Position numbers and translations under genes: made by a program. DNA of 39,189 bases from Flavobacteriales bacterium. Its GTDB lineage: Bacteria; Bacteroidota; Bacteroidia; Flavobacteriales_G; JALEGO01. Shown here piece by piece: positions 28,106 through 36,604 of the stretch. The notes beneath the pieces were generated by a model. The model was not told the DNA's origin. It saw only the letters and a list, made by a program, of their open reading frames with translations, and searched no databases. Position 1 is the stretch's first letter; every line of letters begins with the position of its first letter. The stretch is taken from NCBI GenBank assembly GCA_020629755.1, contig JAHDCS010000018.1:1-39189 (forward strand). Direction: 5' to 3'.

Positions 28106-29416
28106 TTAATTTGTAATAATCAATGAACCAGTGAATCTTACAGGCTTTTCAAAAGAGCCAAACTGTACATTTGCTTGCCACATAAATGTTTCGCCTACAG
28201 AAGCTTTTCTTGTGTTGTTTAGTAGAGAGCCGTCCCATTGTTGATCAGGATGATTAGATCTAAATACTAAAGATCTGCTTTTGGTGTACACTTCAACGGT
28301 AAAGCCTTTAGCAACTTGTGTGTTTTTCAACAACTCTGGCAACCAAAAATCGTTAACCCCATCAGAATTAGGGCTAAACGCATTGGCCGATAAAAGCGTT
28401 ATGGGGTATTCGACCTGTAATGTTTGAGTCAATTGTCTTTGACAGCCTTGTTTGTTCTCAACCAAAATTTCAATCTGATAGTCTTTGGCCTTCAAAAACG
28501 ATTTTTGTGCCGTTTTCGTAGTGGCTGAAGTGCCGTCTTCAAATTGCCATAATATTCTACTTACATCATCAGAAGCGTAGTTGAGCTGGTATACGGGCAG
28601 TTTATCTTTTTCAAAGAAATCAACCTCAATATCTTTCGAGGGAATAGGGTAAACCCTTATTTGCCTGGTATGTGTCTTAGCTAAGTGTTTGTTTGAAACG
28701 GTTAACTCAACACTATACGTACCAGGGGTCTGAAAAACATGCGTAAAGCGTTCAATTTTATATGACGTACCGTCTGAAATCTTCCAAGCGTATGTTGCCT
28801 TTTCGTCTAGATTTTTAGGGGCTCCAAACTCTACTTCTACCCCCTGACAAACAGATGATTGTGCAAAAAAATCAGCTGAAACATCAATCACTTTTTCTCT
28901 TTTGAGGCGCGCTAATGACTGATCTTGTGAAGGATTACTCCCCTGAGCTTTAGAAGGCAAAAGAGTTGACGGGGCAGACACTGTGCTTTTATGACTCTGA
29001 ATCTGTTCTTGTTCTGAAGGTTCTTGTTTATTGGACTCCTGAATTGAAGGTTCTTGACGTCTCTCTTGTGGTTTATCTTTAGATTCTTTTATCTCAACGG
29101 ATGGCAATGACTCTGCCTGAGGAGTGTTTTCAAATGATAAAGCTGGTTTTTCAGAAGGCAATACAGTATAGGTAAATGCTTTGTTGTTTGATTTTACAAT
29201 GATCTTTTTTTCGGGTGCCTCTTCTTGATTTGCAAAATAAAACCATACCCCTGCCGCTAAAAAAACCGACAACAATCCTAATACAATAGAATACGATCCA
29301 AAGCCCTTGTGATTTTGATCTAACTTTTGGCTTATTGCATCCCAAGCTTGAGGCTCGTAGGGCACCTCAAAATTTTCTAAGGACTTTTTTATGTCTTTTT
29401 CAAACTTTTGACTCAT
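28106..29416 (-). CDS. Anti-sigma-like membrane protein with PKD domains and T9SS type B-like C-terminal domain
   Basis: 436 residues. Residues 1-40 are cytoplasmic and hydrophilic (SLENFEVPYEPQAWDAISQKLDQ), followed by one membrane segment at about 41-63 (SYSIVLGLLSVFLAAGVWFYFA). Then comes a Gln/Glu/Ser/Pro-rich linker to about 160, and two PKD-like beta domains (YAWKISDGTSYKIERFTHVF and ILWQFEDGTSATTKTAQKSF). The end, from about 340, is a gliding-motility-associated domain: SANAFSPNSDGVNDFW, QQWDGSL, FTGSLIITN. There is no cleavable signal, so it should be anchored in the inner membrane with the domains in the periplasm. It overlaps the ECF sigma gene by 4 bases (ATGA), the usual sigma/anti-sigma arrangement. 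The anti-sigma role is inferred from position and topology. Confidence 0.8.
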   Translation of the reverse strand: MSQKFEKDIKKSLENFEVPYEPQAWDAISQKLDQNHKGFGSYSIVLGLLSVFLAAGVWFYFANQEEAPEKKIIVKSNNKAFTYTVLPSEKPALSFENTPQAESLPSVEIKESKDKPQERRQEPSIQESNKQEPSEQEQIQSHKSTVSAPSTLLPSKAQGSNPSQDQSLARLKREKVIDVSADFFAQSSVCQGVEVEFGAPKNLDEKATYAWKISDGTSYKIERFTHVFQTPGTYSVELTVSNKHLAKTHTRQIRVYPIPSKDIEVDFFEKDKLPVYQLNYASDDVSRILWQFEDGTSATTKTAQKSFLKAKDYQIEILVENKQGCQRQLTQTLQVEYPITLLSANAFSPNSDGVNDFWLPELLKNTQVAKGFTVEVYTKSRSLVFRSNHPDQQWDGSLLNNTRKASVGETFMWQANVQFGSFEKPVRFTGSLIITN

Positions 29417-29973
29417 CTTATGTGCTTTTGTAGACGTTGTTTTAAGTTCGCTTTAGCTTTAGATAAATTAGATTTAGAGGTGCCTTCACTAATCGATAAT
29501 TTCTCTGCTATTTCTTTGTGTGAATAGCCTTCCATCACATAGAGGTTAAAGACCATTCTGTATTGAGGAGATAAATTTTGCAACTCTTTAATAATCAGTT
29601 TCGGATCTACTAAAAAATCTTTTTCATCTTGATTGTCTTCTGCAATTTGTGCATTATCATATAAGTACTCATCAGAAGCAAAAATGAGTTTATCGCGCTT
29701 GCGCTTTCTATAATAGTCAATGGCTGTATTTGCCATAATACGGCGCACCCATCCTTCAAAAGACCCTTTTAGTGTAAAGTTTTTTAACCCGCTAAATACT
29801 TTTAAGAATCCTTCTTGCAAAATATCTTTTGCTTCATCTTCATTTCTTGTATATCTAAGGCAAACGACCATCATGTTTCCATATAAGTATTCAAAAATAG
29901 CTTTTTGGCTTTTTCTATCTCCTTGAGCTGCTAAGGCTATATGCTCTTTTATTTTAGAGGGATGTAAAGCCAT
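29413..29973 (-). CDS. ECF-type sigma-70 family sigma factor
   Basis: 186 residues with sigma regions 2 and 4 only. Region 2: CLRYTRNEDEAKDILQEGFLKVF and FEGWVRRIMANTAIDYYRKRKR. Region 4: LSPQYRMVFNLYVMEGYSHKEIAEKLSISEGTSKSNLSKAK, a helix-turn-helix that reads the -35 element. The start is ATG 29973. Eleven bases upstream ends a motif GCAACC-N15-CGTTAT, which suggests self-activation. The next gene is its probable membrane regulator. Confidence 0.93.
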   Translation of the reverse strand: MALHPSKIKEHIALAAQGDRKSQKAIFEYLYGNMMVVCLRYTRNEDEAKDILQEGFLKVFSGLKNFTLKGSFEGWVRRIMANTAIDYYRKRKRDKLIFASDEYLYDNAQIAEDNQDEKDFLVDPKLIIKELQNLSPQYRMVFNLYVMEGYSHKEIAEKLSISEGTSKSNLSKAKANLKQRLQKHIR

Positions 29974-29984
29974 AAAACAACTTA

Positions 29985-30011
29985 ATAACGACGATCATAT
30001 AAAAGGGTTGC
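29985..30011 (-). promoter_or_regulatory. Candidate ECF promoter upstream of the sigma gene
   Basis: Minus strand: GCAACC at 30011-30006, 15 bases, CGTTAT at 29990-29985, then 11 bases to the ATG. AAC-type -35 and CGT-type -10 elements are usual for ECF promoters. The same layout occurs before the adhesin gene at 32198. Confidence 0.45.
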
Positions 30012-32157: not shown

Positions 32158-32185
32158 GCAACCCTTGAGTGCATTTGAGCGTCAT
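32158..32185 (+). promoter_or_regulatory. Candidate ECF promoter upstream of the adhesin
   Basis: GCAACC at 32158-32163, 16 bases, CGTCAT at 32180-32185, then 12 bases to the ATG at 32198. It closely mirrors the motif before the sigma gene. The predicted leader is only a few bases long. Confidence 0.5.
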
Positions 32186-32197
32186 AAAAGAAAAACC

Positions 32198-35100
32198 ATG
32201 TATCGTAACGTCTTTTTATACCTGCTATTATTCTTTTTTTTCGGGGGGATGGCCCACGCACAACCCCAAGGTTTAGATTGTATTGATGCTATACCCTTGT
32301 GTGATTTAAATGGCTCTGGAAAGATTTTTCAAAATGCTAGCCCTATAAATAATGATGGCACAATAAGCAACGGTGGTTTAGTTACAGGTGGAGGTAGTGT
32401 TGAATATAGTTTACCTGGATTTTCTTGCAATTCTGCCACCATACCTCCAGTGCTTCATTTTGGTTATGAACCTTATGGAGAAAGATGGTTTTCATTTGAA
32501 GTATTTCAAGCTGGTGAACTTTGTATGAATATCATACCAGATGTAAATACAGATAACTATGACTACATACTTTTTAATGTTACTAATAGTACTTGTGCTG
32601 ATGTTCTTTCAAATTCTGCTGCGCTAGTAGAATCATGTAATTTCTCTGCTGGGACAGGAGCAACAGGGTTTACCGGAATAAATGTTGGTGCAACTGGTAG
32701 CACAAATAATGAATGCATTACCGTTGCAGTTGGTCAAAAATTTTTACTCTACGTATCTGTTAATGATGCGGTAACAGTATCAAACTCTGGGGTTACTATT
32801 GAACAAAACAATTTTGGTGACCCGGGAGCGGCTGATATCTTTGATTTAGTGCCTCCTACGTTAACCACTGCGTCTATTCCTGATTTAACCTGTGGCGATA
32901 CTCAAATTGATGTTAGTTTTGATGAAGACGTCCCTTGTGTGGGCACTAACTCTATTGGCAATGCAACCGTAACAGTGACTGACCCTGTGGGCAACACCAT
33001 CCCCCCAGCAAACATCACCTTTACCGGCGCGTCATGTTCAGCAACTTCTGCCTTTAGTAAAGACTTCACTATTAATTTTGTGGCGGCTGATGTAGGGCTT
33101 GTAGGCGAATACACCATTGAAATTGTAGGCGCTCCAGATTATTGTGGCAATGGCTCTGTAAGTAAGACGCTTACCTTTGAAGTGCTTCCGCCTTATACCT
33201 ACGATTTAACCACCACAGGCAACTCAAAATGTACCGGAACAGGTGACGGAACCGCTACTGTTTCTGTTACCAATACTGGACCTAATCCCCCCATAACATA
33301 CGCATGGAGCACTAGTGTAAATACGTCAGCTACTGAAACTGATTTATCAACCGGCGGACCATACTCTGTAACACTTAATGATGCAAACAGCTGCATGATT
33401 GTTGAAGAATTCACTATTGACCAGGTGCCTGGCTCTCAGCCTGTAGCAGCAACCAATCCTGTTTTAAATGCCAAAGATACCTGTCCGGATAATATTGCCG
33501 GCACAGGCGCCATTGATTTAACCATTGCAGGAGGTGCTTCACCATACACCTATAGCTGGACGGGGCCTAACGGATTTACCTCTGCTGCAGAAGATCTTAC
33601 TGGTCTAGTCGCAGGCGACTACACGGTAGATGTGATAGATGCCAACGGATGTGCCCCTGCTAATGGCGCTGCAACCTTTACGGTGCCTTCCTACATGGCG
33701 CAATACACCATTTCAACATCTTCTATTGACGATACTTGTGGTAATGGCCTTGGGTCTATTAAAATTACGTCAATCACCGATCAAAACTCAGGATCTTATA
33801 GCCCTTTTACTTATTCTTGGGATAATGGCCCGTTTATGGCAGGAGCAGATGAAATTACCGGTTTAAACTCTTCATCGCACCTGGTTGAAATTATAGACAA
33901 ATACGGGTGCTCTGCAACAAAAACAAATATTGAAGTTTTAAATTTTGTGCCAGAAATTAACTTCTCTACTACAAACATTCCGGATACTTGTGCCGGTCAA
34001 GGCGCAGGCCCTGTTGGCTCTTTTACAGTGAATACTGCTACTGTTGATGCCGCTAGCGAAGGCAACTTAACCTCTCCGTTCTCTTATGGCTATGATTTAT
34101 CCGCTCCTACACCTGGCAATGGTATTTTTACTGATATAGCAGCGGGACATAATATTGAAATTATCTTTGAAGACGCCAAAGGGTGTAGAGATACTATTTT
34201 TGATCAGATACAAGATTATCAACCCAATTTTCAGGGCATCTTATTTACCAACGATGACACGTGCTTATCAGGCAAAGGGAGCATCTTTCTACAAGTAAAC
34301 CCAGGCAACGAATTCACCTTTCCGTTAGTCTATCAGTGGAATAATGACCCCTTATTAACAGATAGTTTTTTAATTAATCAAACGGCAAGTTCAAATGCAT
34401 ACAGTCTAAGTGTAGAAGACAAATACGGGTGTACCACTATTTTAAGTGATCAAATTGACAATTTTGAGCCTACTTACAGCTTTAATCCAGCAATAGCACA
34501 TGACACCTGTTATGCGCCCGCTGGGCCTTTTTATGGTAGTATTGAAGTAACTGTAAGCGCTTCAGATGCTGGATTTGATCCTGGTACAATTGATTATGCT
34601 TGGACAGGCACCAATGTTCCTGCACCAGCACCTAACAGCAATATGCTTGATGAAATAGCAGCAGGCAACGACTATAATTTAGAAATAACAGATCAGTATG
34701 GTTGTACGGCCAATGAAACATTTGTAGTAAATGATTTTAAAGTTCAATATACAGTGGCCACAACGCCTGTTAACGCCTTATGCACAAGCAGCACGGGCTC
34801 TATAACGGTTGATCAAATTACGGCTAATTTTCCAGATTTAACTTCTGCTAATGTTGATGTGAATGACCCAAACATTAGTTATGCTTGGAGTATTGTAACT
34901 GGCACAGATGATCCGTTTTTAAACGACATCCCTTCTGGAAACTATACGGTAGTGGTGACAGACAATTATGGCTGTTCTAATACACCTATTAATATTCCGG
35001 TTAATCAAACCAATGACCCAGACTTAACATTAGAGGTTGTGTCAAATACTATGGTATCTTGTGTGGGGTCTGTTGATGGTGAAGCTACTGTAAATGCTTC

Positions 35101-36604
35101 TGATATTTCAGACCCAGCGGGTGGCTATATGTATGAGTGGGATGCTGCCGCTTTAAATGCAACTACAGCAACAGCCAGTGGTTTAGCGCCTGGTTTGTAC
35201 AATGTATCTGTAACCGACGCCAATGGCTGTGAAACCTCTACATCTGTGACTATTGGCGAACCCAGCCCAGTAGAATTATTGCCATTATCTGATACCACCA
35301 TTTGCATTGATGGCAATGCATTATTTACAGCCGAAGCCAGTGGCGGAACGACAGATCCTGCTTGTGTAGGCAATCCAGCCTTATGTTATGACTATTTTTG
35401 GCAAGATCCGGGTGCTACTCCAGGAGATGCTAGCTTTTTAGGTTCTCCAACAAATGACACGACTATTTATCAGGTATTTGCTGAAGATGACAACGGATGT
35501 AAATCAGATACCCTAGAGGTGTCTGTGTTTTTGTATGATTCGCTTACCCTTATGTTTGATCAGCCTGAATATTCTATTTGTGAGGGCGATTCGCAAGACA
35601 TCACAGTAATTGTAGAAGGTGGCAATGGCGATAATCAGTTTGTGTGGAGTACTGGCGAAACCGATTCTATTATCAATATAAAACTGGGGCTTTTAGATGA
35701 TCCTAACTTTTCGGTGACCGTAACAAATGGCGCTGGGTGTTCAACTCCTGCCGTAGACATACTTACCACGATTGGGGTTGACCCGTTAGCCGAAGTAAAC
35801 TTTACACCATCTAATTACGCGGCTTGTCCAGGCGACACGATTGAATTTACCATTAATGGCTTCGACCCAGATAACCTCTATCAAATTGGCTTTGGAGACA
35901 ATACGTCATCTTATACAGACACTAGTGTGCTTGCGCACCAATACAACACCTCTGGTCATCAAACCGTGACCATGGAAATTGTAACGCCTGCAGGATGCGT
36001 GACAAGAGATACTCTAGAGCCTAGTGGTATTTTTGTGCATCCCACTCCAGAAGCTCTGTACACCTACGAGCCCAATCCCCCCACAAACATAAACCCTAAT
36101 GTGGTCTTCTCTAATTTAAGCGAAGGCGACCCCACCTGGTGGATCGACAACCAAGCGTTTACCAATGATTTGGTTGAATACGAATTCTTAACGCCTGACT
36201 CTACCTATTTGTGTACCTTGGCCACAATGACTACATACCCTAATCCTTTTGGAGGTATAAGCACCTGTGTAGATACGGCCTTTTTTGAAATACGCGTACA
36301 AACCACCACTATTCTTTATGTGCCTAGCGCCTTTACACCAGATGCGGATAATGTAAACGACTTATGGGGCCCTGAAGGTGAAGGCATCACCAGTAATTGT
36401 GGTTATCACTTGCGTGTGTATAGCCGTTGGGGTGTTTTAGTTTTTGAAACCACTGACTTTGAAGAAAAGTGGAATGGCAGATTAAACAACACCGATGAAT
36501 TAGTTCCGCAAGGTAAATACCACTATATAATCGATTACATTGACCATGCCGGACGTGAAAAAGAATTGGCTGGATATGTTTTTGTGATTAATCCGACTGA
36601 GTAA
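32198..36604 (+). CDS. Giant SprB-repeat adhesin with T9SS type B C-terminal domain
   Basis: 1468 residues from ATG 32198, signal peptide [21 protein letters not shown]. The N-terminal domain begins [18 protein letters not shown], common to large Bacteroidota type B cargo. An Ig-like domain follows (about 215-330, [19 protein letters not shown]). Then come many SprB-type repeats of the form [15 protein letters not shown]...[13 protein letters not shown], with regularly spaced Cys. A PKD-like part is near 1260-1290. The C-terminal ~95 residues are the type B sorting domain: [46 protein letters not shown]. It should be surface exposed and could act in adhesion or gliding, like SprB. A two-gene tail follows closely. 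Confidence 0.9.

Follow-up and report, generated by a model that had tools for sequence, protein, structure and literature searches.

An ECF sigma factor coupled to a putative Dma-like anti-sigma factor with a divergent type B-like C-terminal domain in Flavobacteriales

The partner of an ECF sigma factor encoded by a Flavobacteriales bacterium is probably a variant of the Dma-like anti-sigma factors. The variant is widely distributed, and in its present form, with two PKD domains and a type B-like C-terminal domain (CTD), we found no description of it in the literature searched (in which subscription journals are poorly covered). From the computed architecture of the pair, its promoter and the association of the promoter motif with particular genes, we propose, at a probability of roughly one half, that the partner senses the type B branch of the type IX secretion system (T9SS) through a decoy CTD and so controls the expression of cargo; it would do this by binding the sigma factor, by docking of the CTD and by a signal that runs from secretion to transcription.

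Both genes lie on the minus strand of the window (the whole stretch of 39,189 nucleotides that was analysed), the sigma gene at 29413-29973 (186 aa) and the partner gene at 28106-29416 (436 aa), and they share the four bases ATGA, as the original prediction had stated. The 186-aa product is a short protein with sigma regions 2 and 4 (Sigma70_r2 and Sigma70_r4_2; PF04542 and PF08281) that scored 98 bits on TIGR02937 (cut-off 42.9), which identifies it as an ECF sigma factor. Its putative anti-sigma factor matched the PKD family in two stretches (PF18911, 6e-22) and CHU_C (PF13585) at 36.6 bits (cut-off 27). An AlphaFold model based on a 39-sequence alignment (mean pLDDT 77) begins with two short helices and a membrane helix, continues as a disordered linker of very low confidence and ends in three beta domains, which are modelled with high confidence (mostly pLDDT >90). 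Together with hydropathy, these results bear out the layout originally described, i.e. a short N-terminus, one span, two PKD domains and a type B-like CTD, and the amino-acid motif quoted at the time, SANAFSPNSDGVNDFW, was found in the partner. Residue 1 is here the start methionine; the model and alignments A1, A4 and A6 omit it and open with residue 2, and their W24, C189 and C324 correspond to W25, C190 and C325 of the protein. A search of solved structures with the partner sequence returned PKD domains only, and a fold search with the model gave nothing beyond generic PKD/Ig/FnIII matches. FecR-type cell-surface signalling was considered for the pair and rejected because no FecR domain was matched in Pfam or NCBIfam.

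Residues 1-37 of the partner (29306..29416, minus strand) form a predicted cytoplasmic, anti-sigma-like module of two short helices (alignments A5 and A6, AlphaFold), in which W25 is invariant among 39 aligned PKD-CTD partners, against a mean column identity of 27% elsewhere. Hydropathy places one hydrophobic span directly after this start, at residues 38-63 (29228..29305), and the model renders it as a single membrane helix. The linker that follows (residues 64-180; 28877..29227) is rich in S/E/K/P/Q and disordered, with pLDDT < 50 over most of its length. An alignment of seven homologues, inspected by eye, showed no conserved cleavage site behind the span, and the conserved cytoplasmic start precedes the span; as judged from hydropathy and conservation, the partner does not have the cleavable Sec signal peptide expected of type B cargo. 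That the anti-sigma-like protein stays in the inner membrane, as first proposed, is supported by the analysis.

The two PKD domains occupy residues ~182-339 (28400..28873), where the model is confident, and the type B CTD-like domain residues 340-436 (28109..28399). On the NCBI type B model TIGR04131 this CTD scored 28 bits, below the cut-off of 35, and ranked 34th of the 35 such domains in its own genome; 24 of 39 family members matched TIGR04131 at E <= 0.01. As CHU_C is above its cut-off and TIGR04131 reaches only 28 bits, we regard the domain as real but divergent. The comparison with cargo rests on an RWG motif of type B CTDs, which we defined here from 30 CTDs of the same genome. It is present in 27 of these 30 cargo CTDs and in 0 of 66 sigma-linked CTDs (Fisher p 8e-21, with kinship ignored). 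In other genomes, it was found in 11 of the 12 non-redundant cargo CTDs encoded next to related loci. The sigma-linked CTDs mostly keep F-x-P-N-x-D-G-x-N-D, W-[DN]-G and the final G, and show new landmarks, for example P-x-x-L following the first motif and a W that replaces the second Y of Y-x-Y. By its sequence, the sigma-linked CTD is not an ordinary cargo CTD, and the missing RWG together with the absence of a cleavable signal sets the partner apart from ordinary cargo. A minimal partner in a record titled Chlorobiota (L124:4048-4713; 222 aa) lacks PKD domains and consists of the N-terminus, the span and the CTD.

The gene pair is not a product of chance, as the same pair with the same architecture recurs in dozens of other genomes. 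In each of the first six genomes, drawn from the same genus, the same family, the same order and a further family within the class, a close sigma homologue precedes a partner of 419-438 aa. The suggested survey of sigma neighbours in Bacteroidota for the same fusion did find it: a sigma-profile scan yielded 80 loci, 79 of them with a readable partner, which divided into 36 PKD-CTD, 18 outer-membrane barrel and 25 short proteins; these proportions are not phylum-wide figures, because the loci are the 80 best matches to this sigma factor. All three classes share one N-terminal plan. Barrel-class partners match outer-membrane beta-barrel families, and their N-terminus is homologous to the N-terminal module of our partner (hhalign probability 96.5, E 8e-10). 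A search with this module gave matches in 181 of 396 genomes of the class, and the loci retrieved from it, together with 20 further regions, again showed sigma plus partner. A full-length profile search at phylum scale detected the partner in at least 2 of 394 genomes; as only the best 4 candidates per genome were scored and cargo swamps the list, this figure is not evidence of rarity, and it was replaced by the sigma and N-terminus searches. On the sigma tree, which does not place the CTD, PorP and barrel classes in an order, PKD-CTD partners are clustered (3 changes vs 43 in shuffles). Cultured carriers of the CTD-form pair include Cryomorpha ignava (L085) and Lishizhenia tianjinensis (L094). 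Five records (L070, L071, L073, L087 and L101) bear titles (such as Chitinophaga pinensis, Chryseobacterium gleum or Candidatus Kuenenia) that do not fit their Flavobacteriales-like sigma loci and are probably mislabelled metagenome bins. A type B cargo gene adjoins 7 of the 36 PKD-CTD loci vs ~3% expected, a modest excess among loci that are not independent.

The partner is therefore not the lone oddity it first appeared to be; it is one branch of a large Bacteroidota anti-sigma family, the barrel branch of which is known as Dma. Dual membrane-spanning anti-sigma (Dma) proteins occur in Bacteroides with sigma partners of group ECF21, and the described members Dma1 and Dma2 are reported to control the sigma factors with which they are paired (PMC13088901). 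Our partner shares with them an N-terminal sigma-binding region (predicted here), one membrane helix followed by a long disordered tether, and a gene beside that of an ECF sigma factor (PMC13088901), as well as a C-terminal domain suited to reaching the outer membrane. It differs in that two PKD domains and the CTD stand in place of the C-terminal outer-membrane beta-barrel, and we therefore file it as Dma-like rather than as Dma; the predicted targets also differ, being T9SS cargo genes here and vesicle or glycan-use genes in Dma. Since the N-terminus is homologous to that of the barrel class, whose architecture is that of Dma anti-sigma factors, the prediction that it binds the sigma factor is well founded.

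A second line of evidence came from a sigma-linked family in which PorP/SprF occupies the position of the CTD. In this family (f68; genomes G444, G510, G536, G582, G601 and G619, and record L101, whose sigma factor is identical to that of G536), the partners carry three to five tandem copies of the N-terminal anti-sigma motif, a membrane helix and a PorP/SprF barrel (PF11751, E 6e-12 to 6e-24), and the following gene encodes a lipoprotein-type signal plus CHU_C, likewise without RWG. Type B CTD proteins are bound directly by PorP-like proteins (PMC9143113), and type IX substrates and shuttles form cognate pairs (PMC12618676). With the PorP/SprF fusion, it follows that at the sigma-linked position either a CTD or its outer-membrane partner is tethered to an anti-sigma module, and this argument from fused and neighbouring genes is the strongest hint that contact between CTD and shuttle may be what is sensed. 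Our partner has the PKD plus CHU_C tail of type B cargo served by PorP/SprF shuttles (SprB/SprF, PG1035/PorP), but differs from such cargo in being without signal peptide and RWG, anchored in the inner membrane and coupled to a sigma factor. Its own genome encodes SprA and has 10 PorP/SprF matches; in the window, no porP/sprF gene adjoins the sigma pair, which counts against a sensor of the type B route. Tandem repetition of the anti-sigma motif before the membrane helix was seen in G444, G510, G601, G536, G560, G582 and G619 (L177-L183) and in L101.

The third line of evidence is the promoter. An exact match to GCAACC-N15-CGTT (29987..30011, minus strand) lies 13 bp before the sigma start codon and is a predicted ECF-type autoregulatory promoter. 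-35 and -10 boxes of this kind are typical of ECF promoters. Its consensus, GCAACC-N14/15-CGTY, is near-universal before related sigma genes. Within 120 bp upstream, AAC-N15..18-CGT was found for 36 of 62 CTD-class sigma genes vs 5.2 in dinucleotide shuffles, almost always with a spacing of 15 or 16, and for 7 of 7 PorP-class sigma genes vs 0.4 in shuffles. With both classes combined, 59 of 68 sigma genes have, within 160 bp upstream, a GCAAC-type box with CGT at that spacing, a count of non-independent events, as many loci are related; a match at L166 was considered spurious and is not included. In Flavobacterium, an ECF-type motif reported to be associated with T9SS genes also has a CGT box at -10 (PMC9723704).

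Elsewhere, exact copies of the promoter motif stand before type B cargo genes in clear excess over expectation. In the own genome and its two nearest relatives, we counted 22 copies of the motif vs 9 of the reversed pattern, and 20 of the 22 vs 1 of the 9 were in promoter position, i.e. intergenic and no more than 250 bp from a start codon (p 5e-5). Three copies precede the sigma genes themselves, which leaves 19; five of these stand before complete type B cargo genes (L258, L259, L264, L265, L268; p ~1e-5, for a background of 1.7% estimated from 35 CTDs in roughly 2,100 genes, the backgrounds used overall being 1.7-2%). Four of these five pass the TIGR04131 cut-off, and L264, an own-genome target, falls below it at 30 bits. 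The motif also precedes gldL, encoding the T9SS motor, in G001 (TIGR03513, 229 bits), a PKD lipoprotein gene in the own genome and in its sister genome (L262, L267), a gene for a protein with a type A-like end (L271), and genes with no obvious T9SS role (algH/DUF179 and an rpoD-like gene).

Two genomes of another family, G007 and G009, contain 28 copies with a spacing of 14 or 15, five of them before complete type B cargo genes (L274, L275, L276, L278, L279). The motif count was clearly above the reversed-pattern control in four of eight genomes, including G007, and not above it in G009, G086, G510 and G601. We inferred no targets from G086, G510 and G601, as the pattern is not enriched there; in G009, where the count equals the control, the support is limited to how often the gene that follows the motif encodes cargo. 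Copies were also seen before a rimP-like gene in two genomes of the PorP-type family (L228 in G601, L254 in G510) and before the rpoD-like sigma gene in G001 (L209). Within the window, a one-mismatch match at 28339 is expected by chance. At 2.2 kb from the sigma gene, a plus-strand gene (32165-36604) encodes a protein of 1479 aa whose type B CTD is canonical (SRWG); no exact sigma promoter motif precedes this gene.

These observations suggest the following model. The ~37-residue N-terminus would hold the sigma factor at the inner membrane, and the linker (~110 residues, up to ~40 nm fully stretched) would be long enough for the PKD-CTD tail to extend to the outer membrane, where the CTD, devoid of RWG, could act as a tethered decoy: it would not be secreted itself but would dock to a PorP/SprF-type shuttle or to some other component of the type B route. 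When cargo competes for shuttles or when secretion stalls, this docking would change and free the sigma factor to transcribe its own operon and T9SS-linked genes, including those of large type B cargo proteins. Of the original suggestion of a secretion sensor, the link to the type IX system is supported (RWG loss, PorP/SprF in place of the CTD in one family, the sigma motif before type B cargo genes), and the sensing itself is retained as a proposal. The closest functional comparison is PorXY-SigP with PorA in Porphyromonas gingivalis, where an ECF sigma factor likewise controls T9SS genes (predicted here) and a CTD protein feeds signalling (PMC7712824). However, SigP is driven by a two-component system and PorA is at the cell surface, whereas here the CTD-like domain is within the anti-sigma factor itself; SigP is also missing from the list of sigma genes with a candidate downstream anti-sigma gene (PMC7712824). 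PorXY-SigP is the known route by which Bacteroidota match the production of very large surface proteins to type IX capacity. If the model is true, the sigma pair would be a second, widely distributed route with a sensor built from the secretion signal itself. The pair also accounts for a class of sigma-linked PKD/CTD proteins that might otherwise pass as cargo, and GCAACC-N14/15-CGTY is predicted as an ECF promoter, with its targets.

The main rival to the tethered decoy is sensing of another ligand: the PKD and CHU_C domains may be plain beta domains, recruited as a beta-sandwich sensor of envelope state (peptidoglycan, periplasmic redox or outer-membrane damage) with no T9SS contact, which we regard as possible, if somewhat doubtful. 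The link to T9SS is not a property of the whole family, since the barrel and short classes, most without a T9SS domain, share the N-terminal plan, and the loss of RWG also speaks for this reading. In addition, the sole cysteines of the partner, C190 where the first PKD domain begins and C325 near the end of the second, are invariant in 39 of 39 homologues; they may act as a redox switch or link the two PKD domains by a disulfide. Against envelope sensing stand the family in which PorP/SprF replaces the CTD and a CTD gene lies next door, and the promoter motif before type B cargo genes.

It is improbable that the T9SS recognizes the CTD and moves the PKD-CTD tail to the surface, giving one polypeptide from cytoplasm to surface that senses the outside, as Dma does with its barrel. 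The linker is long enough for this, Dma provides a precedent and most other CTD landmarks are retained, but RWG, near-universal in cargo, is absent in all 66 sigma-linked CTDs, and this loss makes export less likely. Moreover, mutation of any single one of five conserved motifs in the SprB CTD abolished secretion (PMC12618676, where it is unstated whether RWG is among the five). An ordinary cargo protein that lies beside a sigma gene by chance would explain the cargo-like PKD plus CHU_C tail and the best same-genome match outside the locus, itself a cargo-like tail, but this reading is very unlikely and was rejected on the sigma coupling conserved in dozens of genomes, on the topology (a conserved N-terminus before the span and no cleavable signal seen) and on the loss of RWG.

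Returning to the genome that encodes the tethered-decoy candidate, we noted further loci of related type. A second sigma/anti-sigma pair (G000:C42:75000-80500; L061:2047-4136) has the N-terminal module, a membrane helix and a C-terminal part that resembles an outer-membrane barrel (Dma-like); it is preceded by a gene for a PKD protein with a type A-like C-terminus. Two other sigma genes, on contigs C22 (L062:1338-3496) and C65 (L063:1899-4364), are followed by genes for ~540-aa proteins with a ~43-residue start and one span, a different type of partner, and after each of these a small exported protein is encoded. Finally, at G000:C4:6879-9435, the gene for a PglZ-domain (PorX-like) protein adjoins genes for a PorP/SprF protein and for a small protein with a type B CTD.
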